From NCBI RefSeq assembly GCF_024494595.1, contig NZ_JANHDI010000002.1, positions 62,001 through 126,000 of the forward strand: DNA of 64,000 bases. Direction: 5' to 3'. The stretch comes from Halobellus rarus (GTDB taxonomy: Archaea > Halobacteriota > Halobacteria > Halobacteriales > Haloferacaceae). Under the pieces are notes generated by a model. The model saw nothing but the letters and a program-made list of their open reading frames with translations, did not search any database and was not told the DNA's origin. The position numbers and the translations under genes are program-made. Positions within the stretch are counted from its first letter, which is position 1. Each line of letters opens with the position of its first letter. Below are positions 45,544 through 53,388 of this stretch, piece by piece.

Positions 45544-47400
45544 GTGGCCAGCAGCCTCCTCCCCGTCGTCGCGCTGATCCTCGTCTCCGGAATCGGCGTC
45601 CAGTTACTCGCTCGGCGGATCAAGATCCCGAGCGTCGTCTTCTACCTCGCGCTGGGGCTCCTCCTGGGTCCGGAGGCGCTCGGTCTCGTCACGATCGACA
45701 CCTTCGGTGACGGACTGGAGACAATCGTCGGCCTCAGCGTCGCGATCATCGTCTTCGACGGCGCGTTCGCGCTGCAGTTCGACCGGATTCGAGAGGCGTC
45801 GACGACGTCGTTGCGACTGGTCACGGTCGGCGCACTCGTGACGTTCCTCGGGACGGCCGGGGCGGTCCGCGTGCTCGAGGGCGCCACCTGGGAGATCTCA
45901 CTCGTCGTCGGCGCGCTCCTCGTCGCGACCGGGCCGACGGTCATCACGCCGATTCTGGAGGTCGTCCGCGTCAGAGAACACGTCGCCGCGGCCCTGGAGA
46001 CGGAGGGAATCATCAACGACGTGACCGCGGCGATCGCCGCGGTCGTCATCTTCGAGACGATGCTGCTCGACGACATCGGCATCTCGGGGACCATCGTCGC
46101 GTTTCTGGAACGAGCGGGCGTCGGGGTCGCGGCGGGGCTCCTCGCGACCGGGCTCATCTACTTCCTCCTCACGCACGAACTCACGCCCGAAGGCGGGCCG
46201 CAGACCGCCCGGTTTCTGGTCTTCAGTGCGGCGATCGGCTCGTTCGCGCTCGCGGAGACCGTCGCCGCCGAGGCGGGCATCGCCGCCGCGGCGACCGCCG
46301 GCATCGCGCTCGGGAACCTGGATATACCCCACCGCGAGACCATCGAGGAGTTCGCCCGCGACGCGACGCTGATCGTACTGGCGTTCGTCTTCGTCTCGCT
46401 GGCAGCCCTGATCGACGTCGGCGCGATCCTGCGGCTCGGTATCGGCGGGATTCTCCTGGTCGCCGTGGTGATGCTCGTCCTGCGGCCGCTGGTGGCCGGG
46501 ATCGCGACGTTCGGCGTCAGGCAGTTCAACGCCTCCGAACGCCTGTTTCTGGCCGCGATGGGGCCTCGGGGTATCATCCCCGCAAGCGTGGCGACGCTCT
46601 TCGCGATCGAACTGGCGACGGCGGGCAACCAGGCGGCGAGCCAGGTCCTCCTCGGGACCGTCTTCGTCGTCATCGCGACCACGGACGCGATCGAAGCGGG
46701 ATTGGCACGGCAGATCGGCGACACCCTAGGAGTGACACCAATGCGCACGATAATCGTCGGTGGGGGCCGGGTCGGCCTGGCGCTCGCCACCAGACTGGAA
46801 CGGAGAGGAGAGTTCGTCGTCCTGATCGAGGAGGACGAGAAACAGAAGCAATCGGCGCGAGAGGCCGGAATCACGGTCTACGAGGGCGACGGAACGGAGA
46901 ACGACACGCTCCGTGGAGCGGGCATCGACGACGCGAAGATCGTCGTCGCGGCGACGGAGGACGACAACGTCAACCTCCTGGTCTGCCAGACTGCGCGCAC
47001 GAAGTTCGGCGTCGAGGACGTGTACGCTCGGGTCAACGAACCGCAGAATATGGCCGCCTTCGAGGCGCTCTCGGTCACCGCCATCGACGGCCCGATGTCG
47101 ACCGCCTTCGCGATCGACAACGAGATCGAGCGGCCGGAACTGGCCAACTGGATGTACGACGCCAGCGACGGCCACGACATCCAGGAGATCGAGATGACCG
47201 CCGAGGAGCTGGTCGGAGAGTCGATCAGAGACCTCAACGATCGGATCCCCGGCGGGTGCCTCATCGCCGAGATCGGCCAGAACGAGGACGCCCACGTTCC
47301 CGACCCCGACGAGGTCCTCGAATATGGCGATCACCTCACGTTCCTCGGTGACGCCGCCGCCGTCGAAGAGGCCGTCAAGCGGTTTCATCCTCGCGACTGA
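45544..47400 (+). CDS. Cation:proton antiporter with C-terminal TrkA_N/TrkA_C (NhaP type)
   Basis: A 618-residue CPA-type antiporter starting at a GTG (45544). Residues 1-395 hold about 12 helices, including LLVATGPTVITPIL and EGIINDVTAAIAAVV with the transport aspartate. From about residue 400 a TrkA_N domain appears (MRTIIVGGGRVGLALA), and from about 530 a TrkA_C domain (EMTAEELVGESIRDL). These RCK-like parts gate the antiporter by nucleotide or ligand binding. It would expel sodium or move potassium in exchange for protons. The open frame uses no nearby ATG. Confidence 0.92.
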   Translation: MASSLLPVVALILVSGIGVQLLARRIKIPSVVFYLALGLLLGPEALGLVTIDTFGDGLETIVGLSVAIIVFDGAFALQFDRIREASTTSLRLVTVGALVTFLGTAGAVRVLEGATWEISLVVGALLVATGPTVITPILEVVRVREHVAAALETEGIINDVTAAIAAVVIFETMLLDDIGISGTIVAFLERAGVGVAAGLLATGLIYFLLTHELTPEGGPQTARFLVFSAAIGSFALAETVAAEAGIAAAATAGIALGNLDIPHRETIEEFARDATLIVLAFVFVSLAALIDVGAILRLGIGGILLVAVVMLVLRPLVAGIATFGVRQFNASERLFLAAMGPRGIIPASVATLFAIELATAGNQAASQVLLGTVFVVIATTDAIEAGLARQIGDTLGVTPMRTIIVGGGRVGLALATRLERRGEFVVLIEEDEKQKQSAREAGITVYEGDGTENDTLRGAGIDDAKIVVAATEDDNVNLLVCQTARTKFGVEDVYARVNEPQNMAAFEALSVTAIDGPMSTAFAIDNEIERPELANWMYDASDGHDIQEIEMTAEELVGESIRDLNDRIPGGCLIAEIGQNEDAHVPDPDEVLEYGDHLTFLGDAAAVEEAVKRFHPRD

Positions 47401-48652: not shown

Positions 48653-49402
48653 CTACGTCCCGAATACCTCTAACGAATCTTTTTCTAATGGTGCCTTGGA
48701 GAAGAGCGACACGATGTCCCCGGTTTGGATGACGGTTTCACCTTTTGGGGTGAGTACATCGCCGTCTCGTTCGACACCCACGACGAGCATTTCGTCGGCC
48801 AGTAGGCCTTCATCAACTGCCTGCTCGATTGTCCTCTCTGCAATCTCCGCACCCTCCGAGACGGTGAATTCGACGACCTCTGCGTCGCCGGCGAGGCTCA
48901 TAAAGTCCGTCAATGACGGCCCTTTCGGCAAGTCTTCAGGGCCGAACGGACTGTACGGTGTGTGGTAATCTCCTTCGACAACACTCTCGTCATTGATTTC
49001 TAACCCCAGATCAGAGAGTTCACCCGCCACCTGATTGATATCACTAGTGTCCGCTCCAACAACGGTAATCGCCAAGTTCTCAGAGCCGGCCATCAACTCT
49101 CGGACGGAGATTACTCCGGAGATGTCCAATGCTGACTGAGCGAGGCGGGGACGGTCCGGAATAGATGCTGTACACCGAAATTGGTAGGTGACGTATCCGT
49201 TTATCGATTTATAATCAACATCAGCCAGATATCCTTGCAGAATACCACACTCTTCGAGCTGTTTGATCCGATTACGGATCGTCGCTGGCGTCACTTCTAC
49301 ATCCTCGGCGATATCCGATGTTGCCGTGTTTCGTGCATCTACTGCCAAGTAATAGAGAATGCGTTTATCGATCTCATCGATACGATGGGCCATACCGGCC
49401 AT
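48653..49402 (-). CDS. AsnC-type HTH regulator with RCK_C (TrkA-C) domain
   Basis: A 249-residue fusion: residues 1-60 an AsnC-type winged helix (IDEIDKRILYYLAVDARNT, VTPATIRNRIKQLEECGIL), a middle RAM-like part, and a C-terminal RCK_C domain (about 165-245, EFTVSEGAEIAERTIEQA and KGETVIQTGDIVSLF). The RCK_C domain binds nucleotides or cyclic-di-AMP-type ligands in potassium systems, so this likely senses such a signal and controls the adjacent trk genes; that is inference from context. MAHRIDEID at 49393 is an alternative start. It is divergent from the UspA-trk cluster, with a 400-bp gap. Confidence 0.85.
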   Translation of the reverse strand: MAGMAHRIDEIDKRILYYLAVDARNTATSDIAEDVEVTPATIRNRIKQLEECGILQGYLADVDYKSINGYVTYQFRCTASIPDRPRLAQSALDISGVISVRELMAGSENLAITVVGADTSDINQVAGELSDLGLEINDESVVEGDYHTPYSPFGPEDLPKGPSLTDFMSLAGDAEVVEFTVSEGAEIAERTIEQAVDEGLLADEMLVVGVERDGDVLTPKGETVIQTGDIVSLFSKAPLEKDSLEVFGT

Positions 49403-49804
49403 TAGATCAGGATAAATAAAGGGTCTTCTCTATTTGTGATCGTGACGAGTTCCAGTTCCTCGGACGGTTGCCTACATCCCACAACACTCCCTCGAAGATC
49501 CTCTACAACACTCGTCTGAACCGCTTTTGGCGTCAATCGACCCCAGATTCCGCTAATCAGGGGCACGACTAGTGGTTTAGTGAAATTGAGAAGTTGTCTG
49601 AGAGTGGTACACACCTACTTAGATACTTCTACGCCAGACACAGGATTGTTTGGATTGACACGCCGTGGTCGTTAGGGCTAGGAGGGTCCACCTAATACAG
49701 CACTCTTCACAATAAAGTGACTATATTTCGGTTGGGGAAAATTTGAGCAGGATATATTGCTCTATACCGAAATTCTATCCCAATCTTTATATAATAGAGT
49801 AAGT
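49403..49804. other. Divergent intergenic region of the trk cargo
   Basis: About 400 bp between the AsnC-RCK gene and the Usp-Trk genes. No gene; AT-rich near 49720-49800 with a TTTATATAAT promoter-like box at about 49793. Shared regulation of both directions is plausible. Confidence 0.4.
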
Positions 49805-49912
49805 ATGGATCGAGTGGCGAATCCCGTGACAAAAAGCATCGCGTCGGAAAGGCTGGTTCGTCGGCTACCGGAGCCACGTCGACAGACCGGAAACAACAGT
49901 GATCCACAGAGT

Positions 49913-50263
49913 ATGACTCGATCTGATATTGATCCCCCCGAAGGTATCCCTCAGGGGGTTATTACCGCACTCAAAGACAGCAGCGATAATCAACTGAGGG
50001 AGATCATCCACTACGCGCAACAACTCCTCGAAGACCACCCGTCTCTTACGGACGCTATCGAATCACGCCTCGGAGAGGACCTCGTTCGGATAGAGGACTA
50101 CGGTGAGTACACGATTGTCATCGTCGAACGTCCGGACGAAACGGGCGAAGCGCGCGGGCCGTTCGCCTACCGGGTCAAATGGGAATCCACTGTCGACGGG
50201 GAGGAGGGGCAATATCGGTGGCACTACCTCGGGAAAGTTCACGGCGATACGGGAGGTGGCTGA
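49913..50263 (+). CDS. Hypothetical protein in the trk cargo
   Basis: A 116-residue protein starting at MTRSDIDPPEG; an ATG at 49805 would give 152 residues but the added N terminus lacks protein character. It has a helical start (IIHYAQQLLEDHPSLTDA) and a beta-rich C-terminal part ending YRVKWESTVDGEEGQYRWHYLG. No known domain. It is one base apart from the UspA gene on the same strand, so cotranscription is likely. Function unknown. Confidence 0.62.
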   Translation: MTRSDIDPPEGIPQGVITALKDSSDNQLREIIHYAQQLLEDHPSLTDAIESRLGEDLVRIEDYGEYTIVIVERPDETGEARGPFAYRVKWESTVDGEEGQYRWHYLGKVHGDTGGG

Positions 50264-50264
50264 G

Positions 50265-50708
50265 ATGACTGAGTTGTTTTTCGAACGGGCTGTCGTGCCG
50301 GTTGCAAACCGTGAAGATGCCGCCGCGACCGCGACCGCACTCGTCGAGAACATCGACGATTCGGATAGTACCGTGATTGCCGTCCACGTTATCGAAAAGG
50401 CTGATGGAGGAATGGATAAGGCCTCCGTTGAGCAGCGTAAGCTGTTTGCGCAGGACGTATTCGAGGTACTGACTGAGGGCCTCGCTGACACCGATATTAC
50501 CCTCGAAACGGAGATCCGTTACGGCACTGATGTTGCATCGACACTCATCGATGCGGCTCAGGAACTCAACGCCAGCGCTATCGTGTTTACTCCTCGTGGT
50601 GGGAGTCGCTGGCGCAAACTGTTGACCGGAGATGTTTCTCACAACCTCATCGAGAACAGCGATATTCCGATTGTGGTCATCTCCGACGAAGGGGTGAGCG
50701 AAGCGTGA
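50265..50708 (+). CDS. Universal stress protein A family, element-borne
   Basis: A 147-residue UspA-like protein (LFFERAVVPVANREDA, VIAVHVIEKADGG, AIVFTPRGGSRWRKLLTGDVSHNL, DIPIVVISDE). It carries the ATP-binding-type GGSxxxxxLTGDVS loop. It lies inside the tRNA-Leu-integrated element, upstream of trkA. Usp proteins often sit beside K+ transport genes in haloarchaea and may adjust transport to energy or stress; inference. The start codon overlaps no upstream gene. Function unknown in detail. Confidence 0.88.
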   Translation: MTELFFERAVVPVANREDAAATATALVENIDDSDSTVIAVHVIEKADGGMDKASVEQRKLFAQDVFEVLTEGLADTDITLETEIRYGTDVASTLIDAAQELNASAIVFTPRGGSRWRKLLTGDVSHNLIENSDIPIVVISDEGVSEA

Positions 50709-50763
50709 GTGCGATTAGACATCGAATGTCCGGACAGGCAGCGAGCTAATAATTCAATTTCAT

Positions 50764-51450
50764 ATGTACATCATCATCGTTGGAGCAGGCGATATCGGAA
50801 CGCCACTGATCGAGATTTCGACCCGTGCTGGGAACGAAATCGTAGTTATCGAGCGGGACACACAGCGGGCCGACGCAGTCGCCAGCGAATACGACTGTCT
50901 CGTGCTGAATGCGGATGCCACGACCAAGGAAACGCTAGGCGAGGCCGGCGCAGAACGGGCCGACGCGATCATCTCGACGACTGATCAGGACGCCACCAAT
51001 GTGATGGTCTGTCTGCTCGCACAGGAGTTCGAGATTCCGGTGATCACGTCGGTCGTGCACAGCGCAGAGCATATGAATCTCTTCCGGCAGATCGGAGTGA
51101 ATACGATCGAAAATCCGCAGCAGCTCATCGCGGGACATCTCTATCGAGCGGTCGCCAGACCGGCGATCGTCGATTATATGCGAATTGGCGAGGAGGCGGA
51201 AGTCTTCGAAATCACGGTTACGGAAGATGCACCCATCGCTGGCAAGACACTCACGGAAGCGGGCGAGGAGGGCATCCTCTCGGACGACGTCTTGATCGTT
51301 GCTATCGGACGTGACAGCGAAGACAAGCCACTGACACCCCGGGGAAACACCCGAATCAAGGCTGACGACCTACTGACCGTCTATTCGGCGTCCGGAGCGG
51401 ACCCGGAACTCACGGACATCTTTGGCCATTACGAAGACCAGACTGTGTGA
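50764..51450 (+). CDS. trkA: TrkA potassium uptake regulatory subunit
   Basis: A 228-residue RCK protein: TrkA_N Rossmann domain with IIVGAGDIGTPL near the start and NAD/nucleotide site through residue 130, and TrkA_C from about 145 (AEVFEITVTEDAPIAGKTL, KADDLLTVYS). It gates the TrkH channel by nucleotide binding. A single RCK unit rather than the two found in E. coli TrkA. It lies 55 bp after UspA and 24 bp before the truncated TrkH. Element-borne, so it is probably an accessory K+ system. Confidence 0.92.
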   Translation: MYIIIVGAGDIGTPLIEISTRAGNEIVVIERDTQRADAVASEYDCLVLNADATTKETLGEAGAERADAIISTTDQDATNVMVCLLAQEFEIPVITSVVHSAEHMNLFRQIGVNTIENPQQLIAGHLYRAVARPAIVDYMRIGEEAEVFEITVTEDAPIAGKTLTEAGEEGILSDDVLIVAIGRDSEDKPLTPRGNTRIKADDLLTVYSASGADPELTDIFGHYEDQTV

Positions 51451-51474: not shown

Positions 51475-51813
51475 ATGTCCACTACACTTGTCGGCCGTTC
51501 TGATGCGCTAACCGCCGCAAAAGCAGTTGTCAGGGACATCGGTGCACTAAAAATCCTCATCAGCGGACTGATGTTGGTACCACTGCTTATCTCCTTAATC
51601 TATCAGGAGTGGTACAGCGCGATTGCCTTCCTGAGTGCGGCAGTAGTCACGGCGCTCGTTGGCGGAGCTTCGTACAAGCGGTGTGAAGATGCCCCTGAAC
51701 CAAAACGCCACCACGCGATGATCGTCGCCGCACTCACTCTACTACCGTTGGAAACGAGGCATCGAGACAATAGACGACGAGAATGGGTCTACAAGCTGAA
51801 TGTGTGGATTTGA
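51475..51813 (+). pseudogene. Truncated TrkH (N-terminal part only)
   Basis: A 112-residue product with the start of a TrkH: hydrophobic helices around residues 20-60 (GALKILISGLMLVPLLISLIY and SAIAFLSAAVVTALVGG), then RCEDAPEPKRHHAMIVAALT. The same layout appears at the front of the intact TrkH (MRVNRSAVGHDV to PEKRDAMVTAATAW). The sequence then goes to a basic, non-membrane tail and a stop. It is best read as a remnant of a second trkH that lost its C-terminal part. It lies between trkA and the intact trkH. Confidence 0.7.
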
Positions 51814-51831: not shown

Positions 51832-53388
51832 ATGATGAGGGTAAACAGGAGCGCTGTCGGGCACGACGTTGGTCGGATCGTACAAGCGATAGCGTTGATG
51901 TCTGTGGCATCTATCATCGTGGCAGCCCTCAACGGAGAGTTCTACGCAATACCTGCCTTCGGTGTCACAGCGGTTATCATCGGCGGAGTCGGGACCGGAC
52001 TCGTCCGTCGGTATCAGGACGCCGATCCGCCCGAAAAACGCGATGCGATGGTCACTGCGGCCACCGCGTGGGCTGTCATCGGCGTCCTCGGTGGACTCCC
52101 GTTCTTGTTCATCGCCTGGACAATACAAATTGATCCTTTCCCGGTCTGGACAAATACGCCACCGATGGATTCGACGACAGTTATCTTCCTCCATCCATTG
52201 GACTCGGTCTTCGAGAGTATGAGCGGTTTCACCGGGACGGGGCTGACGATGGCTGCTGTCGAGGAAAAGTTGCCACGGTCGATCCACTGGTGGCGGTCGT
52301 TCATCGAATGGGTCGGCGGCGTCGGGGTGATCGTGTTGACTGTCGCAATTCTCCGGCGCGGCGACGGGAGCAGTGGATCGTACACTCTGTATGAAAGTGA
52401 AGCCCGATCCGAGAAGATTCATCCGAGCATCGTAACGACAGTCCAAGAAATTTGGAAAATCTTCGTTGGCCTGACGATCGGCTCGATTATCCTATTTGTG
52501 CTAGTCGGGATGCCGCTGTGGGATGCGATCAACCACGCGATGACGGGGATAGCGACAGGAGGGTTCTCCGTCCACGGGGCATCGATCGGTCACTACGGCA
52601 GTCCGCTGATCGAATATGCAGTTGTGCCAGTAATGGTCGCCGGCAGTATCGCATTCCCTATTCACTATTTAATATTCAAAGGAGAGGTGCGAAACTTCTA
52701 CGCGGACCTGCAGACGCGATGGGTGTTCCTTTGGTTCACTATCGGGTCACTTGCGCTGACGGCGGTCCTCTATGCGAACGGGCAGTACGCCACACTCGAA
52801 GAGACGTTCCGAGTGGGCTTGTTCCAATTCGTCTCCGCCACGTCGAATACCGGATTCGGGACGGCCACTATTGGTGGGGGAACGGAACAAGTCTGGAGTG
52901 CTGGTGCAACACTGTTGACGTGTCTAGGGATGCTTACCGGCGGCGCGGCTGGCTCGACAACTAGTGGACTCAAACTTATCCGGGTGATTACGCTGATCAA
53001 GGGGACCGAGTGGCAGATCCGAGAGGTCTTCCGGCCGTCAAGCGCCATTCGGTACCTCCGGATCGGCGAGCGTAAACTTAGCGAAGAACAGACGCAACAG
53101 GAGTATACTGAAGCGACGGTCGTGTTCGTCCTCTGGGTCACGTTCCTCGCCATCGGCGTTGCCGTGCTCCTGCGTGTTCTCTCTCCGGCTCACCCGCTGG
53201 AGTATGTGATCTTCGACGTGATGAGTGCTCAGAGTAACGTCGGGTTGGACTCCGGTATTACTGGTCCGACGATGCCCGACACTGCAAAAGCGATGTTGAT
53301 AATCAATATGTGGGTCGGACGTCTAGAAATCATCCCGGTTGCGGTGCTGCTTGGGGCGATCTTTCAGCGGTTTAATCTCTACAGGTGA
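51832..53388 (+). CDS. trkH: TrkH potassium uptake channel protein
   Basis: A 518-residue Trk/Ktr-type channel with about ten helices and four selectivity-filter-like P-loops. One is SMSGFTGTGLTM near residues 120-131, and further ones are MTGIATGGFSVHG, SATSNTGFGTATIG and SAQSNVGLDSGIT. It takes up K+ with TrkA and the membrane potential. The ATG at 51832 gives the full family length and the first helix begins about residue 15. The pair trkA-trkH lies 381 bp apart with the truncated trkH between them. Monovalent-ion uptake is its role; it is cargo of the integrated element. Confidence 0.93.
   Translation: MMRVNRSAVGHDVGRIVQAIALMSVASIIVAALNGEFYAIPAFGVTAVIIGGVGTGLVRRYQDADPPEKRDAMVTAATAWAVIGVLGGLPFLFIAWTIQIDPFPVWTNTPPMDSTTVIFLHPLDSVFESMSGFTGTGLTMAAVEEKLPRSIHWWRSFIEWVGGVGVIVLTVAILRRGDGSSGSYTLYESEARSEKIHPSIVTTVQEIWKIFVGLTIGSIILFVLVGMPLWDAINHAMTGIATGGFSVHGASIGHYGSPLIEYAVVPVMVAGSIAFPIHYLIFKGEVRNFYADLQTRWVFLWFTIGSLALTAVLYANGQYATLEETFRVGLFQFVSATSNTGFGTATIGGGTEQVWSAGATLLTCLGMLTGGAAGSTTSGLKLIRVITLIKGTEWQIREVFRPSSAIRYLRIGERKLSEEQTQQEYTEATVVFVLWVTFLAIGVAVLLRVLSPAHPLEYVIFDVMSAQSNVGLDSGITGPTMPDTAKAMLIINMWVGRLEIIPVAVLLGAIFQRFNLYR

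Follow-up and report, generated by a model that had tools for sequence, protein, structure and literature searches.

Feast/famine regulatory proteins (FFRPs) of the Lrp/AsnC family with a C-terminal TrkA_C domain are already known from haloarchaea, namely, Trh2 (VNG1285G) of Halobacterium salinarum, for which K+/NAD+ sensing was suggested in print in 2014 from its TrkA_C domain (PMC4236453), and two Lrp proteins with TrkA_C of Haloferax mediterranei (PMC4236453, PMC8229911). The portions of these papers available to us describe neither a trk operon linkage nor an operator array, nor do they say where the domain came from. The 64,000-nucleotide stretch of Halobellus rarus DNA analyzed here (the window; contig NZ_JANHDI010000002.1, positions 62,001 to 126,000, from a genome of 3.66 Mb, G000) encodes an AsnC/Lrp-type regulator of 249 residues ending in an RCK_C (TrkA_C) domain (positions 48653 to 49402, minus strand). 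Its likeness to Trh2 was judged by domain architecture. That architecture is published; what is new is evidence on the target, the operator, and the kinship of the sensor. Based on this evidence, the protein is probably a local one-component regulator dedicated to the divergent UNK-uspA-trkA-trkH potassium uptake operon, acting via an array of operator-like sites and an RCK_C ligand shared with TrkA.

Other known proteins offer points of comparison. BusR of Streptococcus and Lactococcus is likewise a winged helix-turn-helix (wHTH) transcription factor with an RCK_C domain; it controls osmolyte uptake and recognizes two motifs with a spacing of 22 bp, which together take up three turns on one DNA face, an arrangement resembling the array reported below (PMC8517857). 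It differs by its GntR-type wHTH and coiled coil, the lack of a RAM domain, its solved cyclic di-AMP (c-di-AMP) pocket, and its target, a glycine-betaine transporter. The archaeal Lrp activators Ptr2, LysM, Ss-LrpB, and Ah-BarR also have regularly spaced semipalindromes two or three turns apart, with activator sites beside the transcription factor B recognition element (BRE), and BarR, like the regulator proposed here, acts on a divergent neighbor (PMC2995911, PMC10201364). According to the accessible parts of these sources, these activators differ in having amino-acid-type effectors and no RCK_C domain. Single-RCK TrkA or TM1088-type gating subunits contain an RCK_C domain akin to that of the regulator (fold match to 3jxo and tree, see below), whereas they possess an RCK_N domain and no DNA-binding domain.

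The initial annotation had proposed an AsnC-type HTH fused to RCK_C. This fusion is genuine, with both domains above the Pfam cutoff of 27 bits (HTH_AsnC-type PF13404, residues 8 to 50, 37.1 bits; TrkA_C PF02080, residues 176 to 234, 31.1 bits). Ten relatives of the genus can be aligned along the whole length of the protein (45 to 70% identity, 11-member alignment A1), indicating that the fusion is a maintained protein. An assembly artifact was ruled out as its origin, since relatives are encoded at 80 loci on other contigs and the ten genus members align in line. The two-domain picture nevertheless overlooked a third domain. A structure model based on a 68-row alignment (mean predicted local distance difference test score [pLDDT] of 83.7, superseding a model from only 11 sequences with a pLDDT of 66.9) comprises a winged helix (residues 10 to 51), a beta-alpha-beta-beta-alpha-beta domain (residues 71 to 142), a less certain linker, and the RCK_C domain (residues 164 to 247). 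The best fold matches of this model in the PDB are Lrp/AsnC structures, over ~150 residues, followed by their sirohaem decarboxylase relatives, BusR, and the TM1088 TrkA ring. The middle of the protein is predicted to be a RAM-like ferredoxin-fold domain (positions 48977 to 49192), an assignment made by fold only, as Pfam detected no RAM family in the regulator. The FFRP hallmarks are thus an AsnC-type HTH found by Pfam (residues 8 to 55, positions 49238 to 49381) and a RAM fold found in the model, to which the Trh2 kind of architecture adds a C-terminal TrkA_C, here recognized by Pfam, model, profile, and tree (positions 48662 to 48913). No RCK_N (TrkA_N) domain was matched by Pfam in the regulator. 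The BusR structure 7oz3_D was retrieved by the fold search with an E value of 8.9e-05 and a poor overlay (TM score of 0.23, root mean square deviation of 29.7), and the RCK_C sequences of the two proteins do not match significantly (E value of 0.48). The GntR-type wHTH and the coiled coil of BusR were not found, the regulator having an AsnC-type HTH and, in the place of the coiled coil, the RAM-like domain. At least 90% of the 68 regulators in the alignment retain Met4, and translation therefore likely starts at 49393 rather than 49402. A TATA-like sequence read by eye, TTTATTTAT (positions 49412 to 49420, minus strand), may be the promoter of the regulator itself.

As the initial annotation had it, the regulator is divergent from the trk genes, and UspA (50265 to 50708; Pfam Usp, 57.8 bits), a single-RCK TrkA with both N and C domains (50764 to 51450; Pfam, profile, and tree), and TrkH (518 residues, 51832 to 53388; Pfam, 238.7 bits) are all encoded on the plus strand. 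Contrary to that reading, uspA does not come first among the divergent genes, since a conserved gene for a protein of 116 residues (UNK; 49913 to 50263, plus strand) precedes it; the intergenic region, taken to be 400 bp long, is really ~510 bp. UNK has no family in Pfam or NCBIfam. Heading the trk operon and coinherited with the regulator, it is possibly an accessory protein of an unrecognized family.

Conservation of this linkage was assessed in the best 80 of 305 relatives found by a search with the regulator. Since the search used the regulator alone, the linkage was not created by the sampling. The records are haloarchaeal, at least one metagenome-assembled genome being labeled otherwise (L092, Thermoplasmatales). 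They comprise 27 close loci (L051 to L077, 70 to 85% identity) and 53 distant paralogues (L078 to L130, 44 to 53% identity). Of the 27 close loci, 25 had a divergently oriented TrkA gene no more than 1.6 kb upstream of the regulator, and 20 had a UNK homologue scoring at least 83 bits (19 bits in L071). In a second sample of 195 genomes of the order, whose species overlap those of the first, the regulator (E value ≤ 1e-85) was found in 19 genomes, UNK (E value ≤ 1e-15) in 22, and both in 17; among the places listed, the two genes were divergent neighbors in all 17. The regulator occurred without UNK in G114 and G200, and UNK occurred without the regulator in five genomes (G036, G145, and G170, strong matches; G037 and G099, weak matches). 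Among the distant paralogues, TrkA or TrkH at more than 100 bits was encoded within 5 kb at 31 of 53 loci. A gene for TrkA, TrkH, an APC(-Usp) permease, an RCK channel, or a CPA antiporter lay within 2.5 kb at 46 loci and was missing at 7, a descriptive count made without a random-gene baseline. Kinship of the APC-Usp permeases with KimA was unsupported: the only one analyzed, that of L120, best resembles solved amino acid transporters, and KimA was absent from the best 60 of its 65 structure matches. No prefusion state was detected beside trk genes, as no TrkA, TrkH, or Usp was encoded near 19 RCK-less relatives (L030 to L037 and L040 to L050; flanks of ~1.5 kb, one shorter); one of them, L035, has an antiporter-type match of 50 bits.

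De novo motif searches in 28 regulator-to-operon regions of 150 to 600 bp revealed a palindrome, TTTCG-N4-CGAAA (log likelihood of 73.5 versus 20.5 to 24.7 in three shuffles), and a TATA-like motif, AATGCCAATATTTA (110.1 versus 40 to 47, likewise in three shuffles). Pairs of AAAT peaked at a distance of exactly 31 bp, with 13 pairs versus 0.33 in shuffles for the 28 regions and 8 versus 0.17 with one sequence per genus, although the shuffles leave shared ancestry in place; the opposite strand gave 2 such pairs. A control set of 198 regions upstream of other genes at the same loci gave none; these controls are less AT rich than the intergenic regions (mean of 0.37 versus 0.50). AT richness plus a TATA box was rejected as the cause of the array, since such pairs were also absent from the 28 of these controls with an AT content above 0.45. 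In the window, the array comprises, all on the plus strand, operator-like site 1 (TTTCGGTTGGGGAAAATTTGAG, positions 49726 to 49747; motif, pair counts, scan, and aligned arrays) and, ~31 bp further, site 2 (ATTGCTCTATACCGAAATTCTA, 49756 to 49777; same evidence), which adjoins the BRE/TATA-like element of the trk operon (CCCAATCTTTATATAAT, 49779 to 49795, with the TATA at 49786 to 49795). A weak site 3 (GAGTAAGTATGG, 49797 to 49808) follows after another 31-bp step, on the downstream side of the TATA; it and the BRE/TATA-like element were recognized in the scan and the aligned arrays. In 23 such arrays, AAA was located within 2 bp of its expected place in 19, 21, and 13 cases for sites 1, 2, and 3, respectively (background of 0.036), and TTAT occupied the TATA position in all 23; these counts are descriptive, the alignment having been optimized on the same sequences. 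In a leave-one-out scan, which covered the window as well as the 80 loci, all of the first 22 listed places (one being the reverse strand of another) fell between the regulator and the trk operon, including those of L058 and L062, which were outside the model (30.0 and 29.9 bits). The array exceeded 12 bits in 24 of 25 trk-linked close loci.

Several results favor assigning the array to this regulator. Among the 53 distant paralogues, which were kept out of the training set, 22 have the best place of their locus in the 420 bp preceding the regulator gene, ~1.5 being expected from length alone, with AT content unadjusted and many scores low or negative. Upstream scores above 10 bits were obtained for 7 of the 53, versus 1 of 1,060 shuffles. 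A strong upstream array (32.8 bits) is present in L029, a distant paralogue of the same genus that was likewise outside the training set, and L022, which is a close form, has one of 42.1 bits. In the second sample, the 18 regulator-bearing operons scored 32.6 to 64.9; eight are letter-identical to training sequences, and the remaining ten scored 32.6 to 61.2. The operons of two weak UNK homologues scored -7.7 and -19.1.

Other observations weigh against assigning the array, or trk control, to this protein. The array of L074, the weakest, scored 15.2 bits, a level reached by chance places elsewhere, and the scan found none in L071, in spite of its divergent trkA. L054 and L070 carry the regulator and yet show neither an array nor any trk gene in the available upstream DNA (5.0 and 3.1 kb, respectively). 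Few of the distant paralogues (7 of 53) have a trk gene diverging from them within 1.6 kb; 46 of the 53 have upstream scores of at most 10 bits, and AAAT pairs at 31 bp are not enriched in them (1 versus 0.23). Finally, four UNK-trk operons of G036, G145, and G170, which lack a close regulator, scored 13.5 to 29.7 with changed letters, and these remnants imply that another protein might use the array. An alternative, which we regard as improbable, is that the array is bound by another Lrp-family regulator or belongs to the core promoter of trk, the AsnC-RCK_C protein acting elsewhere. This would fit the partial retention of the array in operons without a close regulator, its lack in L054, L070, and most distant paralogues, the presence of other Lrp-type stretches in the genome, and the inclusion of the TATA box in the array matrix. 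It fits less well with the fact that a minority of the RCK_C-bearing paralogues have array-like places upstream, three of them (L078, L084, and L089) without a TrkA or TrkH gene within 5 kb, and with the altered letters where the close regulator is absent. An upstream array of at least 10 bits was also found in none of the 19 RCK-less relatives of the genus, though 8 of 9 distant RCK-bearing relatives of the genus were likewise below 10 bits (best of 9.5).

The UNK-led operons without a close regulator in the genome (L145, L147, L151, and L164) retain the 31-bp framework, but their letters differ, which may reflect a changed binding specificity. At L096, such an operon is located 1.5 kb from a distant paralogue.

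In the genome of the window, the array pattern had 4 matches versus 1 for a backward control pattern. Only the trk promoter scored (31.0 bits when left out and 46.8 bits in training), the three other loci reaching at most 8.2 bits. This points to a local regulator, with the reservation that the pattern is strict and narrow. The opposite view, that the protein is a global feast/famine regulator like other haloarchaeal FFRPs and stands beside trk incidentally, appears quite unlikely. It has precedent in H. salinarum, for which the accessible text reports 14 to 48 predicted target promoters per FFRP, 48 for Trh2, and targets identified by chromatin immunoprecipitation; this contrasts with the single scoring promoter of our narrow pattern scan and with a regulator-trk order conserved across many genera.

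The RCK_C domain of the regulator is related to that of the transporter. A profile of the regulators' RCK_C gave 87.5 bits for the RCK_C domain of the neighboring TrkA, the nearest of 25 such domains in this genome; none of the remaining 24 exceeded 29.9 bits. In a midpoint-rooted FastTree phylogeny of 159 domains, the 68 regulator domains formed one group (local support of 0.914) that joined 49 TrkA domains (0.999). Regulators and all 67 TrkA entries excluded the 24 other domains (0.948), the window's TrkA being counted twice among these entries and the rest prechosen by likeness to it. Profile scores and tree thus ruled out an unrelated origin of the regulator's RCK_C. The TrkA domains closest to the regulator group sit beside paralogues (e.g., L086 and L083), and any capture would therefore have been from this TrkA class, not necessarily from this gene.

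Because the RCK_C domain of the regulator is nearest to that of the neighboring TrkA, the simple inference is that the two share a ligand. The nucleotide site of TrkA is located in RCK_N. As the regulator has no RCK_N, NAD or ATP bound at that domain could not be the shared signal, and only an RCK_C ligand could be. The earlier proposal of trk regulation through the ligand of TrkA is supported with respect to trk, to which the regulator is tied by conserved divergent order and the 31-bp array, and indirectly with respect to the ligand, for which it must be narrowed to RCK_C. The first candidate is c-di-AMP, since this nucleotide is the ligand of several RCK_C domains, including that of BusR (PMC8517857), a DAC domain is encoded above cutoff in the genome of the window (71.6 bits), and c-di-AMP is essential in Haloferax volcanii under standard growth (PMC6741144). 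Compared by eye, the residues of the BusR c-di-AMP pocket reported in the accessible text (PMC8517857) could not be paired with those of the regulator; only a loop proline seems to be kept, and loop lengths differ. It is also conceivable, albeit improbable, that RCK_C is a dimerization module devoid of ligand and that the RAM-like domain does the sensing. The RCK_C domain of BusR is dimeric even without ligand (PMC8517857), and published passages describe TrkA_C as having no known function in proteins of this kind. Conversely, regulators and TrkAs both retain L206, E211, T218, G221, T223, and S235, residues that are uncommon among the genome's 24 remaining RCK_C domains, and the RAM domain of Trh2 is considered probably nonfunctional in the relevant passage of Plaisier et al. 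(PMC4236453).

For the trk operon, DNA binding, a shared ligand, and the direction of control are what we infer from these features, in the following way. The AsnC/RAM core, as a dimer or a higher oligomer, would bind an array of imperfect palindromes of the TTTCG-N4-CGAAA type; the 31-bp spacing, three helical turns, would place the sites on one DNA face, with site 1 upstream, site 2 adjoining the BRE/TATA, and the weaker site 3 just downstream of the TATA. The RCK_C domain would sense the same ligand as that of TrkA and alter DNA binding, so that one signal would govern both uptake activity and transporter synthesis. In the sections of the literature covering archaeal Lrp proteins, sites are two or three turns apart, activators bind a few base pairs upstream of the BRE and contact the TATA-binding protein, and LrpA acts as a repressor at the downstream edge of the TATA (PMC2995911). 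Since site 2 adjoins the BRE and site 3 is downstream of the TATA, activation and repression are both possible; from the geometry, K+ shortage may lead to activation through site 2, and additional filling of site 3 may lead to repression. Activation through sites 1 and 2, the better-kept pair, is slightly favored. On the other side, the accessible account of the H. salinarum trh2 deletion reports no effect on growth curves, under conditions apparently not aimed at K+ (PMC4236453). Tentatively, this archaeal family of regulators may have acquired its sensor from the subunit that gates the transporters under its control, such that a single RCK_C ligand (perhaps c-di-AMP) sets both gating and synthesis for K+ uptake. 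The family would then be an archaeal analogue of BusR that arose independently, with duplication having carried it into further transporter operons (Trk, APC-Usp permeases, and RCK channels).

Between trkA and trkH, a truncated remnant of a first TrkH paralogue (51475 to 51813, plus strand) encodes a product with 67 to 71% identity over 85 to 90 residues to TrkH proteins of ~541 residues. In several relatives, the gene for this longer TrkH follows trkA; apparently, the window lost this first TrkH and kept the second. A CPA-type antiporter fused to TrkA_N and TrkA_C (Pfam; 45544 to 47400), 1.3 kb from the regulator, is a possible cation efflux partner. Elsewhere in the genome, two TrkA_C places near contig ends (C21:1946-2128 and C24:1069-1251), with equal scores and frame lengths, are perhaps one repeat assembled twice.

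Haloarchaea hold very high intracellular K+. Our literature search found no direct regulator of haloarchaeal Trk genes in the accessible text of open PMC papers, and, among the titles and abstract openings listed, no paper on a trk operator or an RCK_C regulator of Trk in archaea, most subscription journals lying outside that collection. The locus offers a regulator, a likely operator, and a likely sensor of K+ uptake genes in one place. Control of these genes, and the action of c-di-AMP on it in archaea, thereby become testable. The RCK_C kinship would also be a clean case of a regulator bearing the sensor of its target.

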